A program made the translations under genes and the position numbers. The notes beneath the pieces are model-generated. The model was given only the letters and a program-made list of their open reading frames with translations, ran no database searches and was not told the DNA's origin. Below are positions 3,724 through 31,813 of a stretch of 38,915 bases of DNA, piece after piece (the stretch's first letter is position 1; every line of letters starts with the position of its first letter). Origin of the DNA: an uncultured Spartobacteria bacterium (GTDB lineage Bacteria > Verrucomicrobiota > Verrucomicrobiia > Chthoniobacterales > Chthoniobacteraceae). The stretch is from assembly GCA_903929475.1 (NCBI GenBank), contig CAIYUV010000288.1:1-38915 (forward strand), given 5' to 3'.

Positions 3724-3731
3724 GGGAGTGA

Positions 3732-4901: not shown

Positions 4902-4924
4902 ATTTCAGGACGGGCAAACATCAT

Positions 4925-5932: not shown

Positions 5933-5989
5933 TACAGAAGGTGGTGGTTAAAGGGTGACGGGATTTTGGGATAAAATGGGCCGAGGTCG

Positions 5990-7192: not shown

Positions 7193-7200
7193 CTGTGCGG

Positions 7201-8658: not shown

Positions 8659-8664
8659 GCTGGT

Positions 8665-10811: not shown

Positions 10812-10822
10812 GAAAGATCAGA

Positions 10823-13036: not shown

Positions 13037-13180
13037 GATATCACGAGCTTGAGCAGATAGCGCGGAAGTAGGTAGGTCAGGGTCGGCAGTTTTTCAAGTT
13101 CCGCTATGAAAATTTAGCAACCATGCGGTCATTCCACGCATCGGTCGCAAAATTCTTGTGACGGCAAGTTCAGAGAGCGA

Positions 13181-14482
13181 CTACAAACTAAACCATTTTT
13201 CCGGCACTACAACGATGTCGTTGGCCTGAAGAACAATGTCTGGGCGGCGTCCTTTCTCGACGTCTTTAATACTGCAAGGGAGCTTTGCTTTTGTTCCGTC
13301 GGGCATGCTTCGAAGAATGTGAACCCCGGATTTATCCGCAAAATGATCAAAGCCGCCGCTTTGGAGGATTGCTCCATAGGCTGTGAGTTTTTCCCCTTCA
13401 TTTACCCGATAGCTGCCGGATTTTTTGACCCGACCAGTGACATAGATAAGGTTCATTGTGCCGCTGGGTATGACGATGACATCACCCTCGGTGAGCGTGA
13501 TATCCTGACCGAGACCACCGGCAGAAGGATTGCCTTCTAATATCTTTTTGACGTTCACTTCCTCGACCACACTCCTGTTTGCGGCCATCCGCATGACTTT
13601 GACATGGGTTAGATCCGCACGGTCTGACCATCCGCCGCTGCTTAGCAGGACGGATATGAGCGTTGGTGACGTCCCGGCAGGAACGCGAAATGGGCGTGGA
13701 TTTTTGAATTCTCCCGAGAGGTAAATCAGCGGACCGGGTTCATCGGAGATTCCCTCAAAGCGCTCCACCATCACGCTGGCATGTTTAAGTTGTGTGGCTT
13801 GAAGGGCCTTGCGAACAGCATTCTCCACTTGGGAAATAGTTTTTCCGGCAACAATCACACGTCCTATTTGCGGGAGGATGATGTAGCCGCCGCGGCGCAC
13901 TTGATAACGTCCGTTGAAAGAAGTGTCTTCGTTGACCCAGACTTCAAGATTGTTTCCCGGAAGGATGACCTCCTCACCGTTTTGCAACTGCGGGGAAGAT
14001 TCTGTCTCGTTCCCCTTTTTAGATTTTCCAATTTCATCTTCAACTTGAGCAAGCTGCTCGCGATTGTTGTTTATGCGCGCCTGCCACTCTTTGATTTCGT
14101 TATTCATCCGCTCCGCCTCTTCGGATTTGCCCAGTGATTTAAGAACCTCGGCACGCTTCTTCGCGGTTTCAATTTTATTTTTTCCGTATTTGATTTCCCC
14201 CTCGAGGGAATCGCGGCGATCCATCAATTCCTCCATGAGGTTTGCGCTTTTGGCGCCGCTTGAGTTTTCAGGCTGAAGAGTGGATTCGCCAGTATTCAAT
14301 TCAGCGGAGGGCACACGGAAATTCACAGATTTTCCTGTCTCGACTGCTGCAGTGTTTCCTTTTGGAATCGTGTCTTTTTCAGACGCGACATTTTCTTGCG
14401 CAAACGAAGGTAGAACAGCTGCAAAAAATGCGGAGAACCATGATGCTTTGGCGCGAAATTTTATTGTGTTAAAGATGGGCAT
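13181..14482 (-). CDS. Polysaccharide export protein with SLBB domains (Wza-like)
   Basis: A 433-residue exported protein that should form or feed the outer-membrane or periplasmic channel for the polymer. A signal peptide is visible with likely cleavage after SFA near residue 28. A helical, charged coiled-coil region follows at about 82-155. The polysaccharide-export domain runs about 171-240 (LEVWVNEDTSFNGRYQVRRG, then GGYIILPQIGRV), and two SLBB domains follow at about 253-338 and 345-428, each with a Gly-rich SGGW or SGGF turn. There is no lipobox cysteine; the only Cys is near 403. It is therefore not a typical Wza lipoprotein, and the coiled coil is an unusual addition. The gene pairs with the barrel gene 120 bp upstream and the kinase gene downstream. 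Confidence 0.92.
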   Translation of the reverse strand: MPIFNTIKFRAKASWFSAFFAAVLPSFAQENVASEKDTIPKGNTAAVETGKSVNFRVPSAELNTGESTLQPENSSGAKSANLMEELMDRRDSLEGEIKYGKNKIETAKKRAEVLKSLGKSEEAERMNNEIKEWQARINNNREQLAQVEDEIGKSKKGNETESSPQLQNGEEVILPGNNLEVWVNEDTSFNGRYQVRRGGYIILPQIGRVIVAGKTISQVENAVRKALQATQLKHASVMVERFEGISDEPGPLIYLSGEFKNPRPFRVPAGTSPTLISVLLSSGGWSDRADLTHVKVMRMAANRSVVEEVNVKKILEGNPSAGGLGQDITLTEGDVIVIPSGTMNLIYVTGRVKKSGSYRVNEGEKLTAYGAILQSGGFDHFADKSGVHILRSMPDGTKAKLPCSIKDVEKGRRPDIVLQANDIVVVPEKWFSL

Positions 14483-14536
14483 GGAAGAGTTTCGAGTCAG
14501 GAGGCTCGATGTATTTGAGGATTTTTTGGAACATCT

Positions 14537-14564
14537 ACACTAAAAGTCTAATTTTATCAGTCAA
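14537..14564 (-). promoter_or_regulatory. Possible sigma-70-type promoter before the export gene
   Basis: On the minus strand TTGACT (14559-14564) and TAGTGT (14537-14542) are separated by 16 bases in an AT-rich stretch, about 55 bases before the export-protein ATG at 14482. The -10 box is a weak match (T, A and final T), so this is tentative. If real, it would let the export, kinase and downstream glycosyltransferase genes be made apart from the barrel gene. Confidence 0.3.
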
Positions 14565-14602
14565 TTGCAGAGTGAAAAATGTTTTTTGGAGACGGGAAGT
14601 TG

Positions 14603-16261
14603 TCATTGAAAAAGCCAAGAGAGGCTGAGATAGGCGAGATTTTCGTCGTATGCGTTGGAATTTATTTTGGCGTTGCGTCGCTCGTATTGGTAAATGAATT
14701 TGGCCGTGAGGCGCTCGATGAAGCGATGCTCACAATCGAAACGGGTCAGCCATGATGATGTGGATCCCGAATTGTCATTGTAATTCACATCCGCATATTG
14801 CGTCCGCAGGCTGAGGTGCGTGCGCGGGCTCACGAGATATGAGAGTTGCAGACCAGTGCGCCATTCTTTTCGATTTGAGCCCACCCCATCAATGTTTTCA
14901 ATTTTGTTGTAGTGCAAGTAGGCGGAACTTGTGAGATCCGGCCCAAGGGTCTTGGTGATTTGGTATCTTGCTCCCTGGGAAATTTCGTCGTGAAAATCAG
15001 AAACCTCCCGGAGGTATTCCAAAGTATGTTTCGTGTAGGGATTGGGCGTGTGGTGCAGCCCCAATCTCCAAAGGAGCTTGTTGCCTCTGCTCTTCAATAA
15101 ATAGCCAAGCTCGCCTCGAAAATTGAGCAAATCCGTAATCGGACCTTTGGCGCCCATTCGTATTGTTTGATCCGTGCGTTCGGGATTGTCGCGGCGGTGA
15201 TAGTCATAGGTGACAAAGGGCTTGAAGCGGAGGTCTTCGCGCACGGATTCGATACCGAGAATGGCGCGATCCCGCTGACTTGGAAGGCCCTGTTGATTAG
15301 AGCGATTATCCAGATACCAGAGATTTTCGTGGGATGCTCGAAAATGGAGAACGTTCTGGCCGGGCAGATTGGCACTCGTGGAAAGGCTGACTTCGTTGCT
15401 GTAATAGAGGTGGTCGTTGCCAGTTTGATTATTATTATTTGCAGTTCGACCGCTTGTGCTGGGGCTTCGGGCACTAAGTGTGTAGAGGCCCTCACGAGTT
15501 GTTGCGTCAAAATCCGAATTGTCGAACAAGACAAAATCGTTTCGCACTGAATTTGAGAAGCGGAGCAAGCCCGTTTTAAATTCGTCAGCAATCACGAATG
15601 GAAGTCCAAACGCTGTTGGCTCCCATGCGATCTGGGTCTGTGCCGTGGGCGCGCCCGAGATCCCAAATGAATATGGCGCTTGAAGTTCGAAACCTGAAAA
15701 TCCAGACCGACCCTCAAATGGAAAATAAACAAAATTGCCCGCGACCGCTATGTGAAAGCCTTCGCTCAGTTGCGCCATGATTTGACCGCCAATGCTGAAA
15801 ATACTGAGCGATCCAGACTCGCGGTTGTCAGTGGTCCGATTGATATTGTCGCTCAAAAGAACCGCTGTCGAAATATGCCGAAGTTTAAAGTAGAAGGGTC
15901 CGGCTTTTAAATCTGCGTTCTCAGGTGCAAAACCTCGCTGCAACAATGGAAAGCGGCCCCGAAAATCCGGTAAATCCACTTGGGCACCTCCGCCTACGGT
16001 CTCGGCTGGAGCGAGCGTCGGCGTAAGACGGACATCTCGCAGGTTGTTCAAATAGGGTGCTTTCGTATCTCGAAAAAGGCTGCTATACGGGACTCCGAGT
16101 GCCGGAGGAGTGCTGTAGGCATCACGAGGTATTCTTTGAAGATTGTCCGTGGGTGTAGGTGTGCCGTTTTCGTTGGACGGTGCCTCGCCGATGTATTCAG
16201 CCGCATTGGCACGAAGTCCGCAGAAACAAGCAATTGCAAAGGCAGACAGGCGGACAGTCAT
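14603..16261 (-). CDS. Outer-membrane beta-barrel protein of the polysaccharide locus
   Basis: A 552-residue secreted protein. The signal peptide has likely cleavage after ANA near residue 20. After a low-complexity N-terminal region come repeated alternating hydrophobic/polar strands with frequent Tyr, Arg and Asn, as in GYLLKSRGNKLLWRLGLHHT and TSAYLHYNKIENID. It ends in a strand finishing LSLSWLFQ, and an aromatic near the C-terminus is typical of barrels that are inserted by BamA. This matches the outer-membrane barrel (BBP2-like) proteins found beside Wza-type export genes in several phyla. The likely role is an outer-membrane route for the polymer or a linked surface protein. It overlaps the small membrane-protein gene by 4 bp (ATGA). 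Confidence 0.85.
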   Translation of the reverse strand: MTVRLSAFAIACFCGLRANAAEYIGEAPSNENGTPTPTDNLQRIPRDAYSTPPALGVPYSSLFRDTKAPYLNNLRDVRLTPTLAPAETVGGGAQVDLPDFRGRFPLLQRGFAPENADLKAGPFYFKLRHISTAVLLSDNINRTTDNRESGSLSIFSIGGQIMAQLSEGFHIAVAGNFVYFPFEGRSGFSGFELQAPYSFGISGAPTAQTQIAWEPTAFGLPFVIADEFKTGLLRFSNSVRNDFVLFDNSDFDATTREGLYTLSARSPSTSGRTANNNNQTGNDHLYYSNEVSLSTSANLPGQNVLHFRASHENLWYLDNRSNQQGLPSQRDRAILGIESVREDLRFKPFVTYDYHRRDNPERTDQTIRMGAKGPITDLLNFRGELGYLLKSRGNKLLWRLGLHHTPNPYTKHTLEYLREVSDFHDEISQGARYQITKTLGPDLTSSAYLHYNKIENIDGVGSNRKEWRTGLQLSYLVSPRTHLSLRTQYADVNYNDNSGSTSSWLTRFDCEHRFIERLTAKFIYQYERRNAKINSNAYDENLAYLSLSWLFQ

Positions 16262-16569
16262 AGTGAGCTTTTTGGGGGAAGGGAGCGTTGGGTGTTTTTC
16301 TTCCGCTGTTTCGAAGAGCCCCGGATGAGGAAAGCCGTAGGCAATTCATCGCTGCGGATTGAAAAAGGCAGGTAGGCAAGCAGGCCAAGGATTGGAATGC
16401 ACACTACGATGGCGATCCATGCGAAGCGTTGTCGTTTGTTAAACGGCTGGGCGCATACGCTGGCAATGGCACAAGACAAAACTACAAGCCACAACAGAAC
16501 GGCAAAAAGCCAGATTTGCGTGGTGAGTTTTGATTCTTGAAAAGTGAAGCGGCTAAAAAGTTCGCGCAT
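16258..16569 (-). CDS. Small two-helix membrane protein, PLDc_N-like
   Basis: A 103-residue inner-membrane protein with two hydrophobic helices at about residues 19-42 and 48-70, joined by a short loop. The pattern RQRFAWIAIVVCIPILGLLAYLPF is close to the phospholipase D-like N-terminal domain (PLDc_N) found in many small membrane proteins of unknown role. The C-terminus is basic and probably cytoplasmic. Its stop TGA overlaps the start ATG of the barrel gene, so the two are translationally coupled; it is the first gene of the export operon, just downstream of a terminator that ends the alanine-rich protein gene. A role in sensing or assembly is only a guess. Confidence 0.7.
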   Translation of the reverse strand: MRELFSRFTFQESKLTTQIWLFAVLLWLVVLSCAIASVCAQPFNKRQRFAWIAIVVCIPILGLLAYLPFSIRSDELPTAFLIRGSSKQRKKNTQRSLPPKSSL

Positions 16570-16742: not shown

Positions 16743-19061
16743 TTATCCGTTCTTAGTGTCGGTTTCCTTGTCGTTCACCGAGCCGGTTTCAAATTTCGCC
16801 GCGCCTGCTCCGGTGAGCACATCCTGAAATGCTTGAATTACGTTGTTGTAGTCTGTCGTGTTCTTCTTACCTGCAAGTTTGAGGAAGGCTTTTTCCAACG
16901 CTCCCTGTGTGTGTGTTCCACCATTAAGAACGCCAAGCAGTGTATTTTTTTGTGCAGCTGGAACCAGGGTGTTGCTGGCGGCGAAAATGGTTTGGGCGAT
17001 GCTGCCGGCAATATCGCGTGCCTCGCTCTGATCGGCGAGAGCGGTTCTGGTTTCGTTCACCGGAATTTCAGAAAGCGTCTTGAGAACGGCGTTTCCCACC
17101 GCTGTAATTAAACTGGACTCTTTTTTCAATCCCGCTGTGTCACTTCCATTTTTTCCGAGTATCCCGGAAACGATGGCGGCTGTCACTTCGCCAAGTTCGT
17201 CCATACGATTTGTTGTCTTTACGCCGGGCTTGTTTTGAATCGCCTTTGACAGAGCGGTTGCGAGTGTTGCTGCGGTGGAAAGTTTGATGGGCTTTCCCGC
17301 TGTTGTTCCGTTGTTGCTCATCGCGTTTGCGAGGGTGGCGCCGATGTCCGCAGCTTTTTCTTCATCAACTGCCGAGGCGACTGCTCCTGCGATTACGGGT
17401 GCATTTGCAAGTGCCGCAACATCGCCAACCAATTTGGTTCCAACGAGTGTCACATCATGTGTGATGGCGCGATAAGTGATGGTTTCGGAGTTTGTCGGGT
17501 CGGTGATCGAAATTCCCACCGCTGCATTTTGGACGAACTTTTTATTCTTGTCCGAAATCAATTCCGCAAATGCAGCGCGGTCGGTGATGGTGCTGAGTGC
17601 GGAAATTTGTTGTGCAATATCAGTGGCCGCCTTGGATCCTTTTGCCATGAGCGCAACGGCGATGTCTGCAGCGTCGTTCGCCTTGTTTGCGCTGTCAGCG
17701 ATGTTACGTTCGGCAATGGCTGATGCCATGTAGCCTGCAGCTGCGAAGCTCTTCACTTTCGCTACATTGTCTGTTCCGAATTTTGTGCGACTGGCGTCAT
17801 CGGTGAATCCGCCTCCAGCGCTATCAAAAATGGCTTTTGTTGCCGTATTGGCTGCGCTTGGCGTGGGTGTGCCGATGGCCCCAATCACGGCGGCACCTAT
17901 TTTGGTCTTGGCGGTGACATCCTGATTATCAGAAATCTTTTTTACGATTGCATCCAACTTCGTTGCGTCACCTCCATTGCCGACGGAAACGATTCCTGCG
18001 AAGCCTGCACGGTCAGCTACGCCGCCAATGACCGCGTTGATGATTCCGCTGACATCCGTCGAGGTGCCTGCACGGAGAATTCCCTGCACGATGAGTGATT
18101 TTGTCGGGAGTTTCTGCGCGGGGGCAAGGTTGGTAAGCGTGTTTGCGAGGGATGCCTTGTTTGTATGGGCGCCCATTGTGGTGGCTAGAATTTCGCCGTA
18201 TGCCTTTGCGAGTTTGGCATCGCTGAGAAAGTCTTGAGCTAGGGTTTGCAGGCCCGTGTCGCCGGTGTATTGGCTGTTGGGGTTATTCAGCACGAGCCCG
18301 CCATACAGGGAGCCTGCAGCAGAAGGATTGGTTGCGGCGATTTTTTCCGCCACCAGTCTGGTGAAGGCCTGACGGTTTCCTGCAACGACTGCTCCTTGAT
18401 CAAAAAGCCCATCCACAGCGTTTTGAAGCGCTCCCGAGGCTGCGGCGCTGCTGGTTCCTAGCGCTTTTGTAGTGTTGGTGAGAAGGGTGGCTAAATCGCC
18501 GCTGTAGACTGTTGCGACGGCCTTTCCTATGTCGTTGCCTGCGCTGTCGGTTCCGGTGGATTTGATCGCAGCAGCAAAAGCGATGGCTTTTCCCGCGTCT
18601 GTGAGTCGGAGCTTTGTATTTAAGTTTGCTCCGTTGACGTTGAAAACGGCTGCGGTCACTGAGGCCAGTTGCGCAGCATTGCTGGCGAGGTTGCGCGATG
18701 AAATTGCTGTGGCGATGATTTGTCCTGCGACTTTGTCTTTGTCCGAGCGTGTTTTTAGCGATGCGCTGGGCTCAAGTGCTCCTTCGGCGATCTCGGCTGC
18801 GGTGAGGCCTGAATTGGCGGGATCTTCCAGTGCGAGCGCGAGCGCGAGTAGAAGGTCTGGCTGCTTGGCGGTTGCCGCGTCGTAGATTACCCCGACGTTT
18901 AATGTGGGGATATTGGCAGGGGTGAGTTTGGCGTTGATGGCTGCGCGGCCGGCGACGGAGGCCAGCGCGTTTCCGCCTGTGAGTGCGAGTGTGAGCACGG
19001 CAAGGGCTGGAAGTATGCGCGATACGCAGGGTGAATGGGCGGATTTTAGTGTGGTCGTCAT
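16743..19061 (-). CDS. Secreted alanine-rich helical-repeat protein A, unrecognised
   Basis: A 772-residue protein of unknown family. The signal peptide spans about residues 13-34 with likely cleavage after NALA. The rest is very rich in Ala, Thr, Asn, Asp and Lys, with one Cys (in the signal region), and looks like a succession of short amphipathic helices. Related segments recur at about 229-238 (NRQAFTRLVA), 350-359 (DRAGFAGIVS) and 494-503 (DRAAFAELIS), each followed by Ala-rich helices, which suggests a divergent solenoid. No C-terminal sorting motif, lipobox or enzymatic motif is visible. It lies 90 bp after the ligase/TPR gene 19152-21047 on the same strand, and its product is most simply a surface or matrix protein handled with that ligase. 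A strong terminator follows. It resembles the protein at 21329 in composition, not in alignable sequence over long stretches. Confidence 0.8.
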   Translation of the reverse strand: MTTTLKSAHSPCVSRILPALAVLTLALTGGNALASVAGRAAINAKLTPANIPTLNVGVIYDAATAKQPDLLLALALALEDPANSGLTAAEIAEGALEPSASLKTRSDKDKVAGQIIATAISSRNLASNAAQLASVTAAVFNVNGANLNTKLRLTDAGKAIAFAAAIKSTGTDSAGNDIGKAVATVYSGDLATLLTNTTKALGTSSAAASGALQNAVDGLFDQGAVVAGNRQAFTRLVAEKIAATNPSAAGSLYGGLVLNNPNSQYTGDTGLQTLAQDFLSDAKLAKAYGEILATTMGAHTNKASLANTLTNLAPAQKLPTKSLIVQGILRAGTSTDVSGIINAVIGGVADRAGFAGIVSVGNGGDATKLDAIVKKISDNQDVTAKTKIGAAVIGAIGTPTPSAANTATKAIFDSAGGGFTDDASRTKFGTDNVAKVKSFAAAGYMASAIAERNIADSANKANDAADIAVALMAKGSKAATDIAQQISALSTITDRAAFAELISDKNKKFVQNAAVGISITDPTNSETITYRAITHDVTLVGTKLVGDVAALANAPVIAGAVASAVDEEKAADIGATLANAMSNNGTTAGKPIKLSTAATLATALSKAIQNKPGVKTTNRMDELGEVTAAIVSGILGKNGSDTAGLKKESSLITAVGNAVLKTLSEIPVNETRTALADQSEARDIAGSIAQTIFAASNTLVPAAQKNTLLGVLNGGTHTQGALEKAFLKLAGKKNTTDYNNVIQAFQDVLTGAGAAKFETGSVNDKETDTKNG

Positions 19062-19151
19062 GGCTTTGGAAAAGTGGCTTTGCTGGAGTTGGGGTATTTT
19101 GTTTTTTGAAAGTTGCCGAATGTGTCGCGGAACGCAATCCGTTTTTTTTAT

Positions 19152-21047
19152 TTATCTCGGCTGCTCGGCCGGGGCATTCGGCGCTTGCAGCGGGCCGTTG
19201 AGAAAGGTGGAGAGATTTTGCGAGGTCAACTGCTGGCCTTTCGCAAGGATTTCTTCGGCTTCGCTCTCGCGGCCAGCCGAAATGAGATGCTTTGCGTAGT
19301 AGGCGTAGAGGATGCCCAAATTGGGATCCAATTCCAGGGCGCATTCGTAGGCATCTCTCGCGTTTTTGTAGTCACCGAGTGCATCGAGCGTCTGCCCGAG
19401 GCGGATCCAAAGGTCTTCATCCTGCGGGAAAAGGACGAGTCCTTCGTGGAAGGCTTTTTCCGCCTGCTCAAGACGCGTTTTGCGCGCGCTCCTCGGTGCT
19501 TTCATCGCATCCAGCCGGTGCGCCTGGCCGAGGTGGTAGTATAGAAAGGGGTTTTTCTTTTCCGTCTGCAATCCACGTTGCGCGAAATCAACTGCTTCGC
19601 TGTAAAGGCCATCGCGCAAAGCCACCCGGGATTTTTCACAGAAAATCTCGCCGCGTAATTTTGGCAGGCCTGCGACCGCCAGCCAGAGCCCGAGCGATGG
19701 CAGCAGGAGGCGCGGAAGTAATTTGATGGGTCGCTTTGTTTCCGTCTCCCCGGAAGTGTCGTGAGTTGGGCTGGGATTGACGAGGATGCCGAAGATAAAC
19801 CCGAAAAGAAGCGCGTTGCCGGGCAGGTGCAGATTGAAATCCACCACGGAGTGCGCGAGGTAGGAACTCACCGCAGACAGCGCGCCCACTTGCAGCGCGA
19901 GATGGATGGCAGGGCTGTGGGGTTCTTGCGCGTGCTGAGTCACAAATTCGTTATAGCTCCGAAGGCCGCGGCGTAGATGTGCAAACAAAAAAGCAGCCAT
20001 GCCGACAGCGCCGATGATTCCATACTCCGCCAGCAATTCGAGATAATCGCCGTGTGCGTGCTCAGGATCCGCCTGCAACGGTGGACGCCGGTAGAGGCGC
20101 CCATAATAGAGATGTGTTCCCGAGCCCGTCCCCGCCCATTTTGCCGCCCTCCATTGATCAAGCGCCGCCTGCCAATTATAGATGCGAACATCATAGACCC
20201 CCTTTTTGCGCACCTCGACAATGCGACCCATCAGTTCCATTCGCTCGCTGATCATTTTGCTGCGTGCTCCCAATAAAAGTGCACCAGTCATCAACAGCGG
20301 AGCAATGAGCAGGGTGAGATAAACTGCCATCGGGAAGAACGCCCGGTTTGTTCGCCGTAATACGCCGAGGGCAAGCACTGTGAAAACGCCGAGCGAGAAA
20401 ATCGTGCTCAGCCAGCCACCGCGACTCCCGGTGATTCCCACACCGAAATAACACAAGAGCGCTGCGTAGCCCGTCATGATTCGCAACCACATTTTTTTCG
20501 AGCCCCACAGCGCCAGCGCCAGCGCAAAAGGCCCCATCGCTTCCAGAAAACCCGCCAAATGGATCGAGCTGATAAACATCCCGCTCGCCCGCTCGCCGCT
20601 CGGCGGGCGGACGAGGCCAAAAGGCATCCACTCGTTTCCGTAGGCAAATTGCTGTGCGCCGATCACCACCTCCGCCACCACCAGCCCAAACAGCACGATA
20701 AAAATCGCCACCCGCAAGCGCCCGTCTGTCAGATATCGCGCCGTCAGCAAATAAACAATCAAGCACGCGAGCACCATGAGCATGTCCGTGCGCGCCAAAT
20801 ATTCCACCGGCGACATCGTCGTGCGCACGAGGATGTAGGTAAAAAAAACCGCCGTAACGGCCAAGCACGAACCAGCGCGTGAAATCAGGCGTTCCGGACG
20901 CCCCCAAAAGGCCATGATGCCAGCCAATGCCAGCAGGCCATAAGCAGGAAGGCTGAACGCCATCCGTGTTCCGCTGATATAACACTGAATAAAAACAAGT
21001 GCGGAAACAAATACTGCGGCGATCAAGGAATTCACAAGTGCCGTCAC
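19152..21047 (-). CDS. O-antigen ligase/polymerase family protein with TPR tail, copy A
   Basis: A 631-residue polytopic inner-membrane protein. About ten or more hydrophobic helices fill residues 1-460. The Wzy_C/O-antigen-ligase signature includes GITGSRGGW near 203-213, GTGSGTHLYYGR near 306-317 and HAHGDYLELLAEYG at 330-343 with the conserved His. A C-terminal segment of about three or four TPR-like repeats covers about 474-605 (for example KAFHEGLVLFPQDEDLWIRL, then ALGDYKNARDAYECALELDP) and probably faces the periplasm. Enzymes of this fold move undecaprenyl-linked glycans to lipid A core, to other glycans, or to proteins. The TPR tail suggests protein partners. The gene is a clear paralogue of 24306-26429 (shared LARTD, SRGG, GTGSGT, HSVVDFN). 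It is upstream of alanine-rich protein A on the same strand. Confidence 0.85.
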   Translation of the reverse strand: MTALVNSLIAAVFVSALVFIQCYISGTRMAFSLPAYGLLALAGIMAFWGRPERLISRAGSCLAVTAVFFTYILVRTTMSPVEYLARTDMLMVLACLIVYLLTARYLTDGRLRVAIFIVLFGLVVAEVVIGAQQFAYGNEWMPFGLVRPPSGERASGMFISSIHLAGFLEAMGPFALALALWGSKKMWLRIMTGYAALLCYFGVGITGSRGGWLSTIFSLGVFTVLALGVLRRTNRAFFPMAVYLTLLIAPLLMTGALLLGARSKMISERMELMGRIVEVRKKGVYDVRIYNWQAALDQWRAAKWAGTGSGTHLYYGRLYRRPPLQADPEHAHGDYLELLAEYGIIGAVGMAAFLFAHLRRGLRSYNEFVTQHAQEPHSPAIHLALQVGALSAVSSYLAHSVVDFNLHLPGNALLFGFIFGILVNPSPTHDTSGETETKRPIKLLPRLLLPSLGLWLAVAGLPKLRGEIFCEKSRVALRDGLYSEAVDFAQRGLQTEKKNPFLYYHLGQAHRLDAMKAPRSARKTRLEQAEKAFHEGLVLFPQDEDLWIRLGQTLDALGDYKNARDAYECALELDPNLGILYAYYAKHLISAGRESEAEEILAKGQQLTSQNLSTFLNGPLQAPNAPAEQPR

Positions 21048-21196
21048 AGTATTTCAAAGCCGTCTCGTGACAATCACGGAAAAGCTGTAGAAGAAAAAAA
21101 TCGTGCATACCCTCGCGTAGCTTTCATGTTGCAATACCGTGCTGCATGACGTCAAAGCCGCCCGCCCTGAATTTCGCCGAGATCAAACTGCCTGCT

Positions 21197-21247
21197 CAAA
21201 AAAAAATAAAAAAAATTGACACCACAGACATTTTGATAAAAGTGTCA
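21197..21247 (+). promoter_or_regulatory. Possible promoter and inverted repeat before alanine-rich protein B
   Basis: An A-rich tract (about 21198-21215) runs into a perfect -35 box TTGACA at 21216-21221. Suitable -10 boxes at the usual 16-18 base spacing are poor, and the best AT-rich hexamer (GATAAA, 21235-21240) is too close. A 6-bp inverted repeat, TGACAC (21217-21222) and GTGTCA (21242-21247), surrounds this element and could be an operator. A TATAAC sequence at 21288-21293 lies nearer the start but has no -35 partner. The 281-bp region between the divergent genes would also need a promoter for the minus-strand ligase, which I could not assign. Confidence 0.35.
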
Positions 21248-21328
21248 CGAGTCTGCACACAGCAGGTCCCAGAAATCGAAATCACCCTATAACAATCTCC
21301 TCAAATTAACCATCACCCTAAAAACCCA

Positions 21329-24079
21329 ATGAAACCACTCAGTAACCTACGCATCACCAAGTTCGTCGCAGCAGCCGCACTCGCAGGCATCAGTTTCGTC
21401 AGCGCATACGCTGCTCCAAATTACTTTACTCCGCTCTACGGTCCAATTGACACCACATCGCTAGTGTCCGTTTCCACTCCGCTGAATAATTTCAATGGAT
21501 ATCTTCAAGCGATTGATGCTCAGTTAGCGGGCTCTGGAACGCTTCGCACTCCGGATCTAGGTGGCGGCACTGTTCCGTCTGATGCAGACTTCGTGGCTGC
21601 CGTTGCCTCTGCAGTCGCGGCGGATACGGCGCACGCTTCTGAGATAGTGTCGGCTGGTGTGCAATATAAACCAGAAAAAGCCAAAGATATCCTCATTGCT
21701 GTCGCGACTGGCTCGCCGACTGCATCGTCGGCTGCAGTTGCAGCTGCATCCATAGTCGCTCCTGCCAAGGCGGCGGATATTGCGCTGGGAGCAATCAAAG
21801 GTTTGATTGTTAATGGTGCCAATAACGGCCAGATGGGTGACGCGGCTGCGGCTGCTCTGAATGCAGACACTCGGGAATTGATTGAAGGAGTTGCCAAAGC
21901 CGCAGTTTCTTCAACCAAGAAAAGCTCGACGCAAAACACATCGGCTAAAGAAGTTGCGAGCGCCTTGATGGCGGCGCTCTTGCTGGACGCAAACACAAGC
22001 AATGCTGAATTGTATCTTGATGACGTTGCTCGCGGTGCTGTTGCGGGAGTTGGCGGGTTCGCGAGCACCTCAGCCTCCGACATTGCAACTGCTATGGCAG
22101 CTAAATTCGCGACTGCTCCTTCCGGTGTGCAGACAGCAGCCAACAAGGCTTTGTTCGCTATGGGAGCTCTGAAGTCTTCCATTATTAATGACGCTGGCAC
22201 CAGTGGCTTTGTGGCAGTTCGCAATGCACTTACTGCTGCGCTGGCTTCATCCTCGGCAGACATTCTTGCTGGCGCAAAAGTGCAGCAATACCTTCGTCAA
22301 CAAGATTTGCTTGGTCATACGGATGCGCAGCTTATCACAGACTACCAGCTTCAGTTGACTGCTGGAGACTATGAAAATGCATATGCCTTTATCACTGGAG
22401 CGCTCCAAGTGAAGAAAGGACTTGCTGCGGCTCTAGTGACGGCCTCATTCACTGACGCTCAGGCTGCAACAGGATTCACTACGAATGCAGATGCTAAAAA
22501 ACAGGCATTTGTTGCCGGCGCAACCACAGCAAATATAGGTGCAGTGGGTGAAGTTGTGTCTAATGCTATTACTGCAGCGGGTGGACTGGCTCCTGACCTT
22601 GCTGTTGCTGCTGCAATTCCTGCTGCAACAGATTTGCAAAGTGGTCAGGCGGTTACTGCTGCGATTAAGAACGGCGGTAGAACTGCGTTATCAACCCCTG
22701 CTGCTCAAGGCGTTCTGAGCGCTGCTATCTCAGCTGCAAATAGCGCTGGTTATCAAAGAGCGCTGCCTGATATCGCGCTTGCTGCCGCAAAGGCACGCAA
22801 AGACATTGACGATGACCTCGTTGCAACGGCAATCGCATCTGTTCCATCTGGATGGGAGGAGGCTGTAGCCGCATTCATCGTTGCTCCAAACTCAAAAGAA
22901 GCAAGCGTTAAGGCTGCCGCTATCGCAGCTGCGACTACAAAGAACCCGGCCCTAACGGCTAGTGTGACTTTGGCGTTAAACATTGCCATCGCTGGGAAAG
23001 CCAACTCCAAGACCCTCTATGATGATGCTATCGCATCCCTGAACGGCGGCGGAAGCGCGCTGCCACGTGCTGTCATCTTCGGTGCAGGGGCGGTCAATAC
23101 TGAACTCGCAGTGCCACTGATGGCAGCAGCGATGCGCCTCAAGACTGGCGGAGATACAGACGCTGCCTTGTATAATTACGCTCTTTCTCTGAATAAAAAG
23201 AACGAAACTGCCATGAAAGCAGCATTTGAAACCGCGCAGGATGCAATTGCTCATCCAGATAATTTGTTTGACTTGGTTGACCACAAAGCTCTGACGAATC
23301 CGAAGTCTTCGGTTGAAATTGCCACGGCAGCAGCAGCAGCACGCCCTGAGTATGCCCACTACGTAGCGAGGGCGGCTTCATTCCGCTCGCCTGCTGATGT
23401 AGGCAAAATTGCCACGGCTATTATTCAGTTCGCACATATGCGCACAAATCACGCGGATGACCCAGCCGCAGTAGCTGCAATTTCAGCTGCAACGGTTCTT
23501 GGGCTTAAAGATGCGCATTCTTCAAAAGAAACCACTCTGATGGCTTCGGCTATTTCAGGATTAGTGAAAGGTTGCTTGCTCTTCACCAATGATTACAACG
23601 CAGGGAAAGATGACAAAAATGGTCTGCAAGGAGACACTGCAACTTTTGACGAAGCAACTGGTGCTGGTAACACAATTGCAGATGTAGTCTCCAAACGCTC
23701 CAAAGGCACTGCCGGCGTAATTACAGGTGCAGTAGCCCAGTTGCAGGCTACAGGAGCAACTAGTCTGGATGCTCTCTCGAAAATTGCTCTCACAGCGGCC
23801 GCTAAAGCAATTAAGGATCATGGTCTTGCTTTCGCACAAGCCGCAGGTGCGGCTGCTCAAGCAGCAGCAGCGGCTGGTTCAGCTATGTTCACTGACTTCG
23901 CCGGTATCGCCGCAGCACTTGTTGCAGGTGGCGCCACTGATACAGGGTTTGCTAACGCGGCACAGGTTGGAGCTGCTCAATACACGGCTCACTACTACGG
24001 AGCAGGTGCCGCTGGTATTATGAATTACGCTCACCACAGTGGCTTGAATTCACCGGTGACAAGCTTGTCCGACTTTTAA
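21329..24079 (+). CDS. Secreted alanine-rich helical-repeat protein B, unrecognised
   Basis: A 916-residue protein of unknown family. The ATG at 21329 gives a good signal peptide (basic MKPLSNLRITK, then a hydrophobic core, cleavage near AYA at about 27-28). No Shine-Dalgarno sequence is seen. The mature protein is extremely rich in Ala with Thr, Ser, Asp and Lys, almost without Cys, and reads as repeated short helices such as DFVAAVASAVAADT, AKAADIALGAIKGLI and SVEIATAAAAARPEYA. The spacing of the Ala-rich helix pairs looks like about 35-45 residues but is irregular. There is no recognisable catalytic, anchor or PEP-CTERM-type C-terminal motif; it ends SLSDF. A terminator follows and the ligase/TPR paralogue starts 226 bp downstream. 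A structural, perhaps glycosylated, surface protein is the most likely kind of product. Confidence 0.8.
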   Translation: MKPLSNLRITKFVAAAALAGISFVSAYAAPNYFTPLYGPIDTTSLVSVSTPLNNFNGYLQAIDAQLAGSGTLRTPDLGGGTVPSDADFVAAVASAVAADTAHASEIVSAGVQYKPEKAKDILIAVATGSPTASSAAVAAASIVAPAKAADIALGAIKGLIVNGANNGQMGDAAAAALNADTRELIEGVAKAAVSSTKKSSTQNTSAKEVASALMAALLLDANTSNAELYLDDVARGAVAGVGGFASTSASDIATAMAAKFATAPSGVQTAANKALFAMGALKSSIINDAGTSGFVAVRNALTAALASSSADILAGAKVQQYLRQQDLLGHTDAQLITDYQLQLTAGDYENAYAFITGALQVKKGLAAALVTASFTDAQAATGFTTNADAKKQAFVAGATTANIGAVGEVVSNAITAAGGLAPDLAVAAAIPAATDLQSGQAVTAAIKNGGRTALSTPAAQGVLSAAISAANSAGYQRALPDIALAAAKARKDIDDDLVATAIASVPSGWEEAVAAFIVAPNSKEASVKAAAIAAATTKNPALTASVTLALNIAIAGKANSKTLYDDAIASLNGGGSALPRAVIFGAGAVNTELAVPLMAAAMRLKTGGDTDAALYNYALSLNKKNETAMKAAFETAQDAIAHPDNLFDLVDHKALTNPKSSVEIATAAAAARPEYAHYVARAASFRSPADVGKIATAIIQFAHMRTNHADDPAAVAAISAATVLGLKDAHSSKETTLMASAISGLVKGCLLFTNDYNAGKDDKNGLQGDTATFDEATGAGNTIADVVSKRSKGTAGVITGAVAQLQATGATSLDALSKIALTAAAKAIKDHGLAFAQAAGAAAQAAAAAGSAMFTDFAGIAAALVAGGATDTGFANAAQVGAAQYTAHYYGAGAAGIMNYAHHSGLNSPVTSLSDF

Positions 24080-24100
24080 ACCTGATATATTTCAGCCAAA

Positions 24101-24140
24101 CGCCTCTGCGACCAATAGGTTCGCAGGGGCGTTTTGTTTT
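24101..24140 (+). terminator. Intrinsic terminator after alanine-rich protein B
   Basis: An 11-bp stem (CGCCTCTGCGA, 24101-24111, with TCGCAGGGGCG, 24121-24131; one G-U pair) has a 9-base loop and is followed by TTTTGTTTT. It lies 21 bases after the stop at 24079. The rest of the 226-bp gap to 24306 contains no gene I can support. Confidence 0.85.
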
Positions 24141-24305
24141 CCGTAGGTTCACTCAAGATATAAAAATTCATCGTCCTATTCCTGCCAAAGCCTGATCGTG
24201 CTTTAAGAGTTTTGGTTTGCATGCATAATTTTGACTGACGATTTGTCGCCAATGCACGAATAACATTTAAAACAAAGTTTTTCCATCTCTTCCCAATCGA
24301 ATTCC

Positions 24306-26429
24306 ATGCATCTCCTGATCGCCTCATTTCTTTTGCTTGGACTTTGCATCTCTCAAATACTAATAGGCGGGGTCAAATTGCTTTATGGCATTCCAGCATA
24401 CCTGGCCATTGCCGTAGCTTCGATAATTCCCCTCCTGATTTCCGCCCGCAAGCAGAGCACAGGTGCCCGTGTGTGGCCGGTGTGTATAACTCTGCTGCTC
24501 ACTGTCTATTTGCTCATACGCAGTCAGCTCTCGCCAGTGGACTATCTTGCTCGAACTGATTTTTTTATGATACTGGCAGCGTTCGCAGTTTACCTGCTCA
24601 CTGCATTTTATATTACGCGCCCGCGTCAGAGACTGGTTGTTCTCTACGTCTTGTTCACACTAGCGATCATCCACACGCTGTGTGGAATTCTGCAATTCAC
24701 GCGAAATGACAACTTCATGCTGCTCTCCCTGCTTCCGGACGGCTCGCCTGTGCCAAAGTTTATTCGGCCTGATTACGGATGGCGGGCTAGCGGTTTCTAT
24801 ATTTGTCCGAACCACCTTGCAGGCTTGTTTGAGACGCTCGGCTTGCTGGCCATCGGCGTATGCTGTTTTGGCGGTCATAAATTGTGGCGCCGCGTTGTCA
24901 TTGGATATGTCGCTCTGAGTTGTATCGTGGGCATCGCACTCACTGGAAGTCGTGGGGGCTATATCAGCACAGTATGCGGAGTGGGTGTCCTGCTATTGAT
25001 TACGTTGTGGGTGGCTAAAAAATTACGCCCGGACCGTTTCTCGATGACTTTGATCGCAGCAGGCTCTATCGGTGTGGTTTTGATTGGTTGCGCGATATTT
25101 GGTATGTCGCAAAGCACGGTTATCGAGGATCGGATGGGCAAGGTGGTTGATACAGGAAATATGCGTCCGCTGATGTGGCAGGCGGCACTCAAGCAGTATC
25201 AATTGAATCCTGCCTTCGGAACCGGGAGCGGCACCTATCTCTATTACGGCCGCCATTTCCGTGATCCGAATGTGCAGAATGACCCAATGCACGTGCACAA
25301 CGACTATTTAGAATTGCTTTGCGAATACGGGTTTGTTGGGGCGGGTCTGTTTGCGTATTTTTTAATACTGCACATTGGCTCTGGCTGGCGTGCGATCGTC
25401 CGTCTGGTGAACCGACGCCTACTGCCCGCCGGGCATACTGCGAACGACGAACTGGCGCTCCTCGCAGGGACCCTAGCTGCGCTTGCAGCCCTAGTGATTC
25501 ATTCGGTCGTGGACTTCAATTTTCACATTCCCGCGAACACACTTTTTTTCGCGTTTCTATTTGGAATACTGGCAAGCCCCACTGCGGACGCGGAACTGAC
25601 ACCGTCCCAGCCCACCCGCCATATGCGTCTGGCGAGGTTTGCGCTGCCGGTCTGCGGTGTTGCGCTTGCTGCGCTCTCTTTCCCGTTGCTTCCGGGCGAG
25701 TATTTTGCGGAATGGGCACGTATCAACCTGCGCAACATGATTTTTGTGGATCAGATTGCGAACACCAGCACGGCGGTGGCGATCAGTTTGCCGGGAACAG
25801 GCATTGGCCAACTGTTGCCGGCGGGAGGTGTTGAATCAAACTGGGCAAAGGGCTACGAACAGCAGCACCTGCTCGCAAACGCCCTTTCCTTCGCTGAGCG
25901 CGGCATAGAGAAGGAAAAGATGAATCCGGATCTCTACTACTATCTGGGCGAGGCTCATCATTTCTATGCTGTCTTCGAGGAAGCGTCTTTAAAGAAGCTT
26001 CTCGGTCACGCCGCCGCAGCTAGGGCATACGAGCAGGGGCTTGCGATATTTCCAAACGATGTCCGATTGCAGCTAAAGCTCGGGCGTGCCTACGACAATC
26101 AACGGCTCTACGATCAGGCAGGAGAGATTTTGATGAAAGCAATGCGCTTTGATCCGAACCTCGGAAATACATACGCCAGCTTTGGCTATCATCTTTGGTT
26201 GCAGCGGAAAATCAACCGCGCAGAGGCCTATTATCAGAAAGCGCTGGAGTTAGATTCTGGCAATGAACTCGCCAGAGCGGGGATGAATGATGTTCAGCAA
26301 ATCCGGGCGCTGGCGCTAAACACCCAGTATGTCGAAATCAACGACGATCCGCTAGAAGGGATGGATGCCGAGGCGGTAACATCCGCGGACGAGCAGTTCG
26401 GTGTGCATGGCGTGACGGCGAATGAGTGA
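24306..26429 (+). CDS. O-antigen ligase/polymerase family protein with TPR tail, copy B
   Basis: A 707-residue polytopic membrane protein, paralogous to the product of 19152-21047. Membrane helices fill about residues 1-465. Shared features are LSPVDYLARTDFFMIL near 76-90, ALTGSRGGY near 211-219, GTGSGTYLYYGR near 305-316, HVHNDYLELLCEYG at 329-342 with the conserved His and the more usual Asn after it, and HSVVDFNFHIPANTLFFAF near 399-417. A longer periplasmic insertion (about 475-530) precedes TPR-like repeats from about 530 to 670 (GIEKEKMNPDLYYYLGEAHH, then ALELDSGNELARAG). The likely reaction is transfer of a lipid-linked glycan to an acceptor. It overlaps the next gene by 8 bp, so it heads a plus-strand operon of glycan genes. 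Confidence 0.86.
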   Translation: MHLLIASFLLLGLCISQILIGGVKLLYGIPAYLAIAVASIIPLLISARKQSTGARVWPVCITLLLTVYLLIRSQLSPVDYLARTDFFMILAAFAVYLLTAFYITRPRQRLVVLYVLFTLAIIHTLCGILQFTRNDNFMLLSLLPDGSPVPKFIRPDYGWRASGFYICPNHLAGLFETLGLLAIGVCCFGGHKLWRRVVIGYVALSCIVGIALTGSRGGYISTVCGVGVLLLITLWVAKKLRPDRFSMTLIAAGSIGVVLIGCAIFGMSQSTVIEDRMGKVVDTGNMRPLMWQAALKQYQLNPAFGTGSGTYLYYGRHFRDPNVQNDPMHVHNDYLELLCEYGFVGAGLFAYFLILHIGSGWRAIVRLVNRRLLPAGHTANDELALLAGTLAALAALVIHSVVDFNFHIPANTLFFAFLFGILASPTADAELTPSQPTRHMRLARFALPVCGVALAALSFPLLPGEYFAEWARINLRNMIFVDQIANTSTAVAISLPGTGIGQLLPAGGVESNWAKGYEQQHLLANALSFAERGIEKEKMNPDLYYYLGEAHHFYAVFEEASLKKLLGHAAAARAYEQGLAIFPNDVRLQLKLGRAYDNQRLYDQAGEILMKAMRFDPNLGNTYASFGYHLWLQRKINRAEAYYQKALELDSGNELARAGMNDVQQIRALALNTQYVEINDDPLEGMDAEAVTSADEQFGVHGVTANE

Positions 26430-27480
26430 CACTGGTGCCGCCTGCGTCCCCCGCTTTCATCGTTTGTTGCGAGGTCTTACTATCGCCTGTGCAATCGTTC
26501 TTTCCCTGTTGATCGTCTCCATCGAGTGGAAAGCGGAGGCGTGGCTCCCTCTCGGGCTCCTTAGCTTTGCGCCACCTGTCCTTTTTGCCGTCCCGCTTGC
26601 GATTCTCGCGCCATTCTCTGTTTATGCGAGGTGTTGGCGTTTGTGCGTTGTTCAAGCTGCCTGCATGGCGCTGCTCGTTTTTGTTTTTATGACGTGTCGC
26701 CTTCACGGGCCGAAATCCAGTGCGGCACTCACAGTCATCACGCACAACGTGGGGCAGGGGAATCGTGCTGCTTTTGTGGATTCTTTTCCCGCAGAAAAAC
26801 CGGACGCCGTGCTCCTTCAGGATGTAGCCAATGCTGATTATCGAGAAACTGAATATCGCCGCCGCTATCCGTCCTACCGCAATCGCGGCGTGGCACAATT
26901 CATCCTTCTAACCCCGCATGAAATAGAAATTGCTGAGCCGGTGAGAGAGGCCTTGTGGCGCGGCAAACTCGTCGCGGCGCGCTTTGTGATCAAAGTCGGA
27001 GAGCGTTCGGTCGCGATCTACAGCGTCCACCTTCCCACGCCGCGTAGTTCGCTTAGTCATGTTTTCAGCCCGCGTGTTGCGCTCGAAATGTTCTGGCTAT
27101 CGAAGGCTCCTACCGATGGTTTTTCCAGCTACCGCGAATGGCTAGATGCGAGGATCGCACTTGCCCGCACGCTTGCCGGTGTTTTAGAAAAGGAACCGTT
27201 GCCATTCATCGTCGGCGGTGACTTCAACATGCCCGACCACGGCATCGTTTATCACACTTTCGCAAACCGGTTCACGGATGCATTTGCCGCCAGCGGACGC
27301 GGATGGGGAATGACGTTCCCCGGAACGCACGACGGGCGCATTCCCGTTCTTCTTGGCCGTTGGCTGCGGCTGGATTATTGGTTTGCCGGACACGGCTGGA
27401 AGCCTGTGGACTGCCGCGTCGGGAATGACACCTTTTCACAACATAGTGCCGTGCTAGCCCGCTTTGATCCCGTGCAATGA
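26422..27480 (+). CDS. Membrane-anchored endonuclease/exonuclease/phosphatase-fold protein
   Basis: A 352-residue protein. Three hydrophobic helices (about residues 18-33, 45-66 and 72-91) precede a domain of the EEP superfamily (DNase I/phosphodiesterase fold), like VanJ-type proteins. Motifs seen are THNVG with N109, PDAVLLQDV at about 127-135, SVHLP with H203, GGDFNMP with D267 and N269, RLDYWF with D318, and SQHSAV with H341. Two usual residues differ: the metal-binding Glu of the LQE motif is Asp (D134), and the Asp of the terminal SDH motif is Gln (Q340). It may be a membrane phosphodiesterase or phosphatase acting on a lipid carrier, or a changed/inactive member. It overlaps the ligase by 8 bp and the next gene by 4 bp. 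Confidence 0.8.
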   Translation: MSDTGAACVPRFHRLLRGLTIACAIVLSLLIVSIEWKAEAWLPLGLLSFAPPVLFAVPLAILAPFSVYARCWRLCVVQAACMALLVFVFMTCRLHGPKSSAALTVITHNVGQGNRAAFVDSFPAEKPDAVLLQDVANADYRETEYRRRYPSYRNRGVAQFILLTPHEIEIAEPVREALWRGKLVAARFVIKVGERSVAIYSVHLPTPRSSLSHVFSPRVALEMFWLSKAPTDGFSSYREWLDARIALARTLAGVLEKEPLPFIVGGDFNMPDHGIVYHTFANRFTDAFAASGRGWGMTFPGTHDGRIPVLLGRWLRLDYWFAGHGWKPVDCRVGNDTFSQHSAVLARFDPVQ

Positions 27481-29105
27481 AAACAAAACTCAACAACCTC
27501 ATCTTGTGGCTCATCGTTTTCGCGGCCGCATTTGACGTCGCATTTCTCCTGCAAAAATTTGGCGGTGCCTACGAAAGTGAGTTTGGCGCGCATCCCGACG
27601 AAGCTGCCCACTACGTCACGGGGCTTTTCGTGCGTGATGCAATGAAGACGCTGCCTTCGTGCGTCGCGCAGCGTTCCGCAACTCCGCTGAAAGCGTTTGG
27701 GCCCACGGCTCCGGGCGGATTTTACGAGCATTATCCCAAGGTCGCACTCGGCGTCTGGCCTCCGTCATTTTACCTTGTGCAGAGCGCATGGACGCTGCCC
27801 TTTGGTGTTTCGCGCACGAGCGTGTTGTTGCTCATGGCTTCGCTGGCGGCGGGAGTGGCCACGTTGATCTATGGCGCGCTGAGACGTGAATTCGGCGCCC
27901 TGCCCGCCGCCGCTGCCGCGCTGCTTTGGCTCTGCGGCCCGCTGGCGCGTGAATACTATGGCATGATCATGGCAGAGACCCTCGGCACGCTCACCATGCT
28001 CGGTGCCACACTCGTGTGGGGCCGTTTTCTTGATGACGGACGCAAACGGGATGCCATCTATTTTGCCCTTCTCGCATCTGCTGCGATCCTCACCAAAGGC
28101 AGCGGGCTCGCCCTCGTGCTCATGTGCGCGTTTTCGTTGCTCCTGATGCGCCGCTGGAAAATATTCGCAGAGCCCGCACTTTGGATCGCCGTGGTGATGG
28201 TTGCAGTGCTCGCTGGCCCGTGGACATGGTATTTCCGCAAGGAAGGAATGCGAGTCGGCGGCTGGGAGGACAACAGCGGCGGGGTTTCCTGGTCATTTAC
28301 TTCGCAGGCCGTGCCCTACTACCTGCAAAAAATGAGCAACGCCATCGGGATCGCTGTCGCGGCCTTTGCACTCATCGGTCTCGTTGCCCGCGCACGCAGC
28401 AACGGCAGGTGGGCGGCCATCAGCTCGCTGGTGATGGGAATCTTCATGTTTCAAAGTCTGATTCCAGTGGGACGCGAGGCGCGGCACATTCTCCCCGCCA
28501 CTGCCGGGATTGTATTGCTCGCCCTCGCGGGGCTTTTCACCATCGCTCGTGCGCGCATGTTGCGCGCGGAGGGTGCCGAGCAACATCGGCGCGAGCAATT
28601 ATGGGTCGTCCTGCTGCTTCTACTCACGCTGCCCTTCGCGTTCATGCACCATCAGCAGAAATGCTATTCGGGTTTCCGGCCCATCGCCAGCGACATACTG
28701 CAACGTGCACAGTCTGGCACTCACATCCTCGTTTCGTCCGATGCAAGGGGGGAGGGGATGCTTATTTCAGAAATCGCTATGCGCGATCATCGTCCAAACC
28801 TTTTCATCGAGCGTGCGAGCAAGGCACTCGTGGATCCGAATGGCCGCACTTGGGACGGGAAAAATCTCCGCGAGAAATTCAGCGACGACGAGCAACTCCT
28901 CGCTTTTTTCACAGGCGGAAAAATTGAATACATCGTCCTCGACGACGCACTCCCCGAGGACAAACGCGCCGGCTACCACGATCAACTCCGCCGCGTGATT
29001 AACGATCACATCGGCATATTCTTTTCCGTAGCAGAGACCACAGTCATCCGCGATGGCGAGTTGCAGTCCAAACCGTTGCGTCTCTACCGTGTTGTTCGCA
29101 GGTAG
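27477..29105 (+). CDS. GT39/ArnT-like membrane glycosyltransferase
   Basis: A 542-residue polytopic inner-membrane protein of the GT-C superfamily, with about ten to twelve hydrophobic segments to about residue 390. The first periplasmic loop carries GAHPDEAAHYVTGLFVRD, with the D41-E42 pair and His that mark the catalytic loop of PMT/ArnT-type enzymes. They use polyprenyl-phosphate sugars and work on the periplasmic side. The C-terminal ~150 residues are soluble and probably periplasmic. The start ATG overlaps the previous stop (ATGA). The following gene encodes a DPM1-like GT2 that could make its polyprenyl-phosphate donor, which makes the pair a plausible functional unit. Acceptor unknown. 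Confidence 0.87.
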   Translation: MKTKLNNLILWLIVFAAAFDVAFLLQKFGGAYESEFGAHPDEAAHYVTGLFVRDAMKTLPSCVAQRSATPLKAFGPTAPGGFYEHYPKVALGVWPPSFYLVQSAWTLPFGVSRTSVLLLMASLAAGVATLIYGALRREFGALPAAAAALLWLCGPLAREYYGMIMAETLGTLTMLGATLVWGRFLDDGRKRDAIYFALLASAAILTKGSGLALVLMCAFSLLLMRRWKIFAEPALWIAVVMVAVLAGPWTWYFRKEGMRVGGWEDNSGGVSWSFTSQAVPYYLQKMSNAIGIAVAAFALIGLVARARSNGRWAAISSLVMGIFMFQSLIPVGREARHILPATAGIVLLALAGLFTIARARMLRAEGAEQHRREQLWVVLLLLLTLPFAFMHHQQKCYSGFRPIASDILQRAQSGTHILVSSDARGEGMLISEIAMRDHRPNLFIERASKALVDPNGRTWDGKNLREKFSDDEQLLAFFTGGKIEYIVLDDALPEDKRAGYHDQLRRVINDHIGIFFSVAETTVIRDGELQSKPLRLYRVVRR

Positions 29106-29154
29106 TGACCCGCGCTTGCCAGACGCACATCTCTTAACAACATTCCGCGCTCCC

Positions 29155-31778: not shown

Positions 31779-31813
31779 CTCTCCTCGACGAACTATTGAG
31801 CACTGAAAACTCC

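Follow-up and report, generated by a model that had tools for sequence, protein, structure and literature searches.

We propose, with a probability that we put at roughly 60%, that the two membrane sugar-transfer enzymes LigA and LigB of a soil/freshwater Verrucomicrobium are WaaL/PglL-superfamily enzymes that act as protein O-oligosaccharyltransferases, each dedicated to a C-terminal acceptor tag on the exported protein encoded beside it. The window (the whole stretch of DNA analysed) is one 38.9-kb contig of a 4.5-Mb assembly, and the family is placed in the Chthoniobacterales by its named relatives, among them the cultured Chthoniobacter flavus Ellin428, which encodes an AlaB-type protein (L108).

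Translation recovered the four open reading frames that the first-pass annotation had listed without strands; two are encoded on the reverse and two on the forward strand (Table 1), in the order AlaA< LigA< >AlaB >LigB with intergenic gaps of 90, 281 and 226 nt. The ligase genes had been described as paralogous, and their products indeed share 35% identity over 665 columns (E 2e-116) together with the motifs LARTD, SRGG, GTGSGT and HSVVDFN. Each adjoins, as had also been noted, the gene for an alanine-rich exported protein (19% Ala in AlaA, 25% in AlaB) with a Sec-type signal peptide, the partner being located 3' of LigA and 5' of LigB. Since LigA and LigB fall into separate clades of the ligase tree, the arrangement did not arise by local inverted duplication, thereby substantiating the earlier view that no simple event of this kind is involved.

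Table 1. Features of the ligase locus and its surroundings, in window positions
Feature	Position	Strand	Basis
Exopolysaccharide cluster, downstream of AlaA, with AlaA at its end	2950..16569	-	domain matches
AlaA (772 aa), Ala-rich and exported, partner of LigA	16743..19061	-	AlphaFold model, homologues
AlaA C-terminal tag GSVNDKETDTKNG, residues 760-772	16746..16784	-	conservation
Candidate acceptor Thr767 of AlaA, codon	16761-16763	-	position -6, conserved
LigA (631 aa), membrane ligase (Wzy_C) with a TPR domain at the C-terminus	19152..21047	-	domain matches, ligase tree
LigA TPR region, approximately residues 476-610	19218..19622	-	Pfam TPR matches
AlaB (916 aa), Ala-rich and exported, partner of LigB	21329..24079	+	AlphaFold model, homologues
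AlaB C-terminal tag GLNSPVTSLSDF, residues 905-916	24041..24076	+	conservation
Candidate acceptor Thr911 of AlaB, codon	24059-24061	+	position -6, conserved
LigB (707 aa), membrane ligase (Wzy_C) with a TPR domain at the C-terminus	24306..26429	+	domains, hydropathy
LigB His331 codon, putative catalytic His in large periplasmic loop	25296..25298	+	invariant; motif order
LigB TPR region, approximately residues 520-655	25863..26270	+	Pfam TPR matches, LigA-LigB alignment
EEP-family protein, membrane-anchored, overlapping the LigB stop	26422..27480	+	Pfam PF03372 6e-9
PMT_2 glycosyltransferase, GT2-methyltransferase fusion, GT4 and UDP-glucose/GDP-mannose dehydrogenase, downstream of LigB	27477..33127	+	Pfam

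Both ligases were assigned to the WaaL/PglL superfamily by their Pfam matches to Wzy_C (PF04932; LigA 1e-17, LigB 3e-21), which score 64.7 and 76.3 bits against a curated cut-off of 31.7; several TPR models also matched both proteins, and PglL_A (PF15864) and Wzy_C_2 were not detected in either at E values up to 0.1. A profile of the ligase domain matched nothing in the PDB at E values up to 10. Residues R216, R276, R287, H331, G305, G307, H399, D403 and P409 are invariant across the ligase alignment. When equated with WaaL and PglL by motif order and not by direct alignment, R216, R276, R287 and H331 correspond to residues needed in both enzymes (His331 of LigB to H338 of WaaL and H349 of PglL), whereas the G-x-G and H-x3-[DE] motifs, the latter present as H-x3-D...P (H399, D403, P409), resemble residues reported to be PglL-specific (PMC3643930). 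Alignment-averaged hydropathy yielded 13 membrane segments, and a topology with the N-terminus inside, in which the basic residues favour the cytoplasmic side, places the SRGG, HSVVDFNFHIP and His331 loops and the TPR domain in the predicted periplasm; the invariant histidine and arginines (R216, R276/R287) are all located in predicted periplasmic loops. A generic Wzy_C match cannot tell WaaL, Wzy and PglL apart, which would suit the rather unlikely alternative that LigA and LigB are ordinary exopolysaccharide or O-antigen ligases or polymerases, the partner being co-inherited with a tail that serves another system, for example surface sorting.

The signal peptides of AlaA and AlaB (LALTGGNALA/SV and GISFVSAYA/AP) were assigned by inspection, partner signal peptides having been called with a crude rule and visual inspection. 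Neither protein matched a family in Pfam or NCBIfam, and no similarity between the two was detectable (BLASTP E 0.12; profile-profile probability 0.2%), so that homology of AlaA and AlaB was rejected on these two comparisons. AlphaFold models, computed from shallow alignments of six (AlaA) and seven (AlaB) sequences, depict all-helical solenoids with a mean pLDDT of 79 and 74, respectively, in which the final 11 aa of AlaA and residues 888-916 of AlaB are disordered. Foldseek searches against the PDB returned weak matches for both, mostly to large alpha solenoids (many of the importin, CAND1 and SF3B type); two of the AlaA matches were slightly below E 1e-3, yet with a TM of about 0.1, and none of those for AlaB was under that value. 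Despite their disorder, the tail windows rank 9th of 765 (AlaA) and 23rd of 909 (AlaB) in conservation, with E766, T767 and N771 of AlaA invariant among homologues down to 26% identity and P909, V910 and T911 of AlaB invariant in seven AlaB proteins.

A tagged secreted partner adjoins 38 of the 57 Chthoniobacterales ligases sampled, and likewise both ligases of the window, tagged partners having been called by regular expressions with evident antisense matches removed by hand; many of the genomes compared are MAGs. The partner bodies are very diverse, ranging from 71 to 1370 aa and differing in composition, and their ends are alike. Threonine or serine occupies exactly position -6 in 35 of the 38, under expressions that did not demand it for every class, and in 13.8% of 610 other proteins taken as background. 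Among 48 secreted ORFs, non-redundant and no more than 260 nt from a ligase (a set that includes spurious ORFs), T/S is found at -6 in 69% and at the flanking positions in 4% and 10%, while Asn at -2 reaches 48%, Pro at -8 35% and Pro at -5 33%. BLASTP sorts the partner bodies into 18 families, 16 of them from the Chthoniobacterales, and ten of these 16 have T/S at -6 (binomial p 9e-6); because the motif was discovered in the data also used for counting, these tag statistics are descriptive.

The tags could be divided into classes. Class A, with the partner 3' of the ligase, is exemplified by GSVNDKETDTKNG, GSVNDPETQYTNR and GSVTTPETKNQNG, with KETDTKNG as the typical end and, on AlaA, the pattern [PK]-E-[T/S]-x3-N-[G/R]-COOH. 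Class B, with the partner 5' of the ligase, includes LNSPVTSLSDF, NNSPVTDISNF and TGAPVTDIFNL, typically ends in PVTSLSDF and displays on AlaB the pattern P-V-[T/S]-x4-[F/L]-COOH. Class C partners, also 5' of the ligase, carry tags such as VFVPVTPTQNR, SCQPTPTTNR and TEVSPTGNR and typically end in VTPTQNR. A pattern search of 28 genomes retrieved no other convincing secreted carrier of the class-A or class-B patterns in the window's genome, which argues against a role of the tail in a system other than the ligase. In genome G014 a repeat-type ORF that is distant from the ligases (L179:5945-8518, reverse strand) ends NPVTSIFEL (GASNPVTSIFEL) and is possibly an extra substrate or a chance match. 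Certain small partners (L126:6566-6853, L114:6498-6863 and L154:5745-6386) possess a Cys-rich ICH...HxGDxxGxC-like module right before the C-terminal end, several copies of which are present in the L154 protein.

Diverse bodies with one short common C-terminal end, encoded near exopolysaccharide genes, are reminiscent of PEP-CTERM/exosortase proteins and their sorting signals, and some neighbouring exopolysaccharide proteins weakly match exosortase-associated families. It is nevertheless very improbable that an unseen sortase- or exosortase-like enzyme recognises the tail as a processing signal, by analogy with PEP-CTERM, since the gene that tracks the tail is the ligase and the motif is followed by neither a hydrophobic segment nor a basic end. 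The ligase partners lack the transmembrane segment and basic cluster of PEP-CTERM proteins, and their membership of that group was rejected, the tails stopping five residues past the Thr with the hydrophobic stretch absent. No exosortase was noticed in the window.

The class of tag follows the ligase. On a ligase tree of 63 rows only three changes are needed to account for the four states of tag class, and the side on which the partner is encoded follows the class; wherever both complete pairs are present (the window, G007, G001, G009 and G014) the E-T tag is found by LigA and the P-V-T tag by LigB, with no exception. Within the genus, AlaB homologues adjoin LigB in G001, G007, G008 and G009, and AlaA homologues adjoin LigA in G001, G006, G007 and G009; in other genera AlaB-LigB are adjacent in G014 and G024 and AlaA-LigA in G022. 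The two pairs are situated on different contigs in G001 and G009 with the partner unchanged, and together in G014, arranged as in the window. AlaA-LigA and AlaB-LigB are separate conserved modules. Co-occurrence across genomes, whose absence had been named beforehand as refuting the pairing, was thus borne out, AlaA keeping LigA and AlaB keeping LigB in congeneric genomes. As to the first-pass proposal that each ligase may glycosylate its own repeat protein, the dedicated relation is retained as the best reading, while the putative acceptor moves from the Ala-rich body to the short disordered tail with Thr/Ser at -6, which the first-pass annotation had not noticed. That tail class tracks ligase clade, and that the pairs are kept when apart in the genome, is difficult to reconcile with an ordinary polysaccharide ligase whose partner is co-inherited.

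In genome G031 the class-B ligase has no adjoining AlaB; a homologue of AlaB is encoded on a separate contig, and its end, RPVSNIFSL, has Ser in place of Thr at -6. Both contigs are short MAG fragments and the separation may therefore reflect assembly only. The exchange of Thr for Ser suggests that the hydroxyl group is what is conserved at this position. No tagged neighbour accompanies the remaining 19 of the 57 Chthoniobacterales ligases, in some cases because the contig stops there. None of 28 more distant ligases of the same order, from clades other than A-C, has a tagged neighbour, so that the trait is a property of certain ligase clades; several of the 28 are accompanied by an outer-membrane barrel gene, and such partnerless members in an exopolysaccharide-type context would be expected of ordinary ligases.

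In G008, a MAG, the AlaA homologue is interrupted and the position after LigA is taken by a different secreted protein (L082:2245-3015, forward strand), which has a weak carbohydrate-binding match and ends HETQKEKP. Distant ligases of the Limisphaerales type often adjoin exported proteins with a FecR domain, which come after the ligase in L152, L153, L159, L162, L168 and L169 and in which V-S-P occurs near the C-terminus in no fixed register.

C-terminal peptides are often bound by TPR domains, and Asn at -2 with a set distance to the C-terminus would suit a clamp. The tail might accordingly be a docking peptide for the ligase TPR, with an unglycosylated partner that scaffolds or regulates the ligation or polymerisation of polysaccharide. 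The exopolysaccharide clusters in which many of the ligases are encoded, with outer-membrane barrel, Wzc and Wza genes, are consistent with such a function and make a role as polymerase or exopolysaccharide ligase possible. We nonetheless consider docking without glycosylation unlikely, as the T/S exchange at the most constrained position points to a hydroxyl acceptor and the partner bodies are too diverse for a common structural role.

The gene for a dedicated O-oligosaccharyltransferase is often a neighbour of that for its substrate; for two such enzymes, TfpO and TfpM, the residue modified is the C-terminal one of a pilin (PMC12645811). LigA and LigB resemble TfpO/PilO and TfpM as membrane enzymes of the WaaL superfamily for which one C-terminal Ser/Thr is the target and the substrate is often encoded close by (PMC12645811), target and substrate being putative here, but differ in the TPR domain on the enzyme, in a candidate site at -6 instead of the last residue, and in candidate substrates that are not pilins. 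A type IV pilin substrate was rejected for AlaA and AlaB, which are modelled as all-helical solenoids and lack Pfam/NCBIfam matches, and no significant Pfam match to pilins was obtained for the other partners tested; the C-terminal residue itself was likewise rejected as candidate acceptor, the conserved Thr/Ser being at -6. With PglS-ComP and PglL the pairs have in common a Wzy_C ligase and, for PglS and pilin-associated PglL, an adjoining cognate substrate (here a candidate one), and with PglL also the His, Arg and GxG/H-x3-[DE] residues that correspond by motif order (PMC3643930); in contrast, PglL_A and Wzy_C_2 are not detected here and the candidate site is neither internal nor low-complexity. 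WsfB of Paenibacillus alvei (PMC2943079) is a predicted S-layer O-oligosaccharyltransferase that likewise combines Wzy_C with a C-terminal TPR motif and targets an abundant surface protein; it differs in that the S-layer protein is modified on Tyr, the organism is Gram-positive and no common C-terminal tag is mentioned in the passages on it. This union of TfpO/TfpM-like and WsfB-like features, with non-pilin candidate substrates, is what favours the dedicated O-oligosaccharyltransferase reading.

The genes surrounding the pairs are plausibly suited, 3' of LigB, to making and recycling a lipid-linked glycan. The EEP-family (endonuclease/exonuclease/phosphatase) protein has approximately three predicted membrane segments, recurs 3' of LigB in several relatives and might serve to recycle lipid carrier set free in the ligase reaction, and the genes beyond it probably supply the glycan. 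A GT2 domain resembling polyprenyl-phosphate glycosyltransferases is fused to a methyltransferase at 29053-30573 (forward strand), adjoining the PMT_2 protein. The exopolysaccharide cluster encodes a small membrane protein, an outer-membrane barrel, Wza-like and Wzc-like proteins, glycosyltransferases, a Wzy_C protein of a second type and a methyltransferase. This third Wzy_C protein of the window, without TPR, is encoded at 7201-8658 (reverse strand) and shows weak similarity, below the cut-off, to the TIGR03097 exosortase-associated O-glycosylation ligases. The protein encoded at 4925-5932 (reverse strand) matches the STELLO glycosyltransferases (PF03385, 2e-13), a family known from plants.

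Under the dedicated O-oligosaccharyltransferase reading, a polyprenyl-linked glycan would be transferred in the periplasm to the Thr/Ser at -6 of the partner's disordered tail, which would probably be held by the periplasmic TPR domain. Each enzyme would recognise one tag, class A on AlaA in the case of LigA and class B on AlaB in that of LigB, with cross-reaction between the pairs presumed absent. Two helical surface proteins would result, each bearing its own glycan. More tentatively, and at somewhat less than even odds, the ligases may represent an undescribed Verrucomicrobiota class of TPR-tailed O-oligosaccharyltransferases, with a portable -6 tag on many unrelated exported proteins and with E-T and P-V-T pairs that are orthogonal in one cell.

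A literature search found no dedicated study of O-glycosylation and oligosaccharyltransferases in the Verrucomicrobiota and, to our knowledge, the dedicated O-oligosaccharyltransferases known so far have pilins as substrates. The presence of two paralogous pairs in one genome makes the specificity of the tags open to testing, and the tag, if the proposal is correct, would be useful for putting glycans on a chosen protein end. Such a finding would mean that a tag of a few residues, borne by unrelated bodies, is read by the enzyme encoded next to it, which is testable in cultured Chthoniobacter flavus Ellin428, and would establish dedicated protein O-glycosylation with a short, sequence-defined acceptor in the Verrucomicrobiota.
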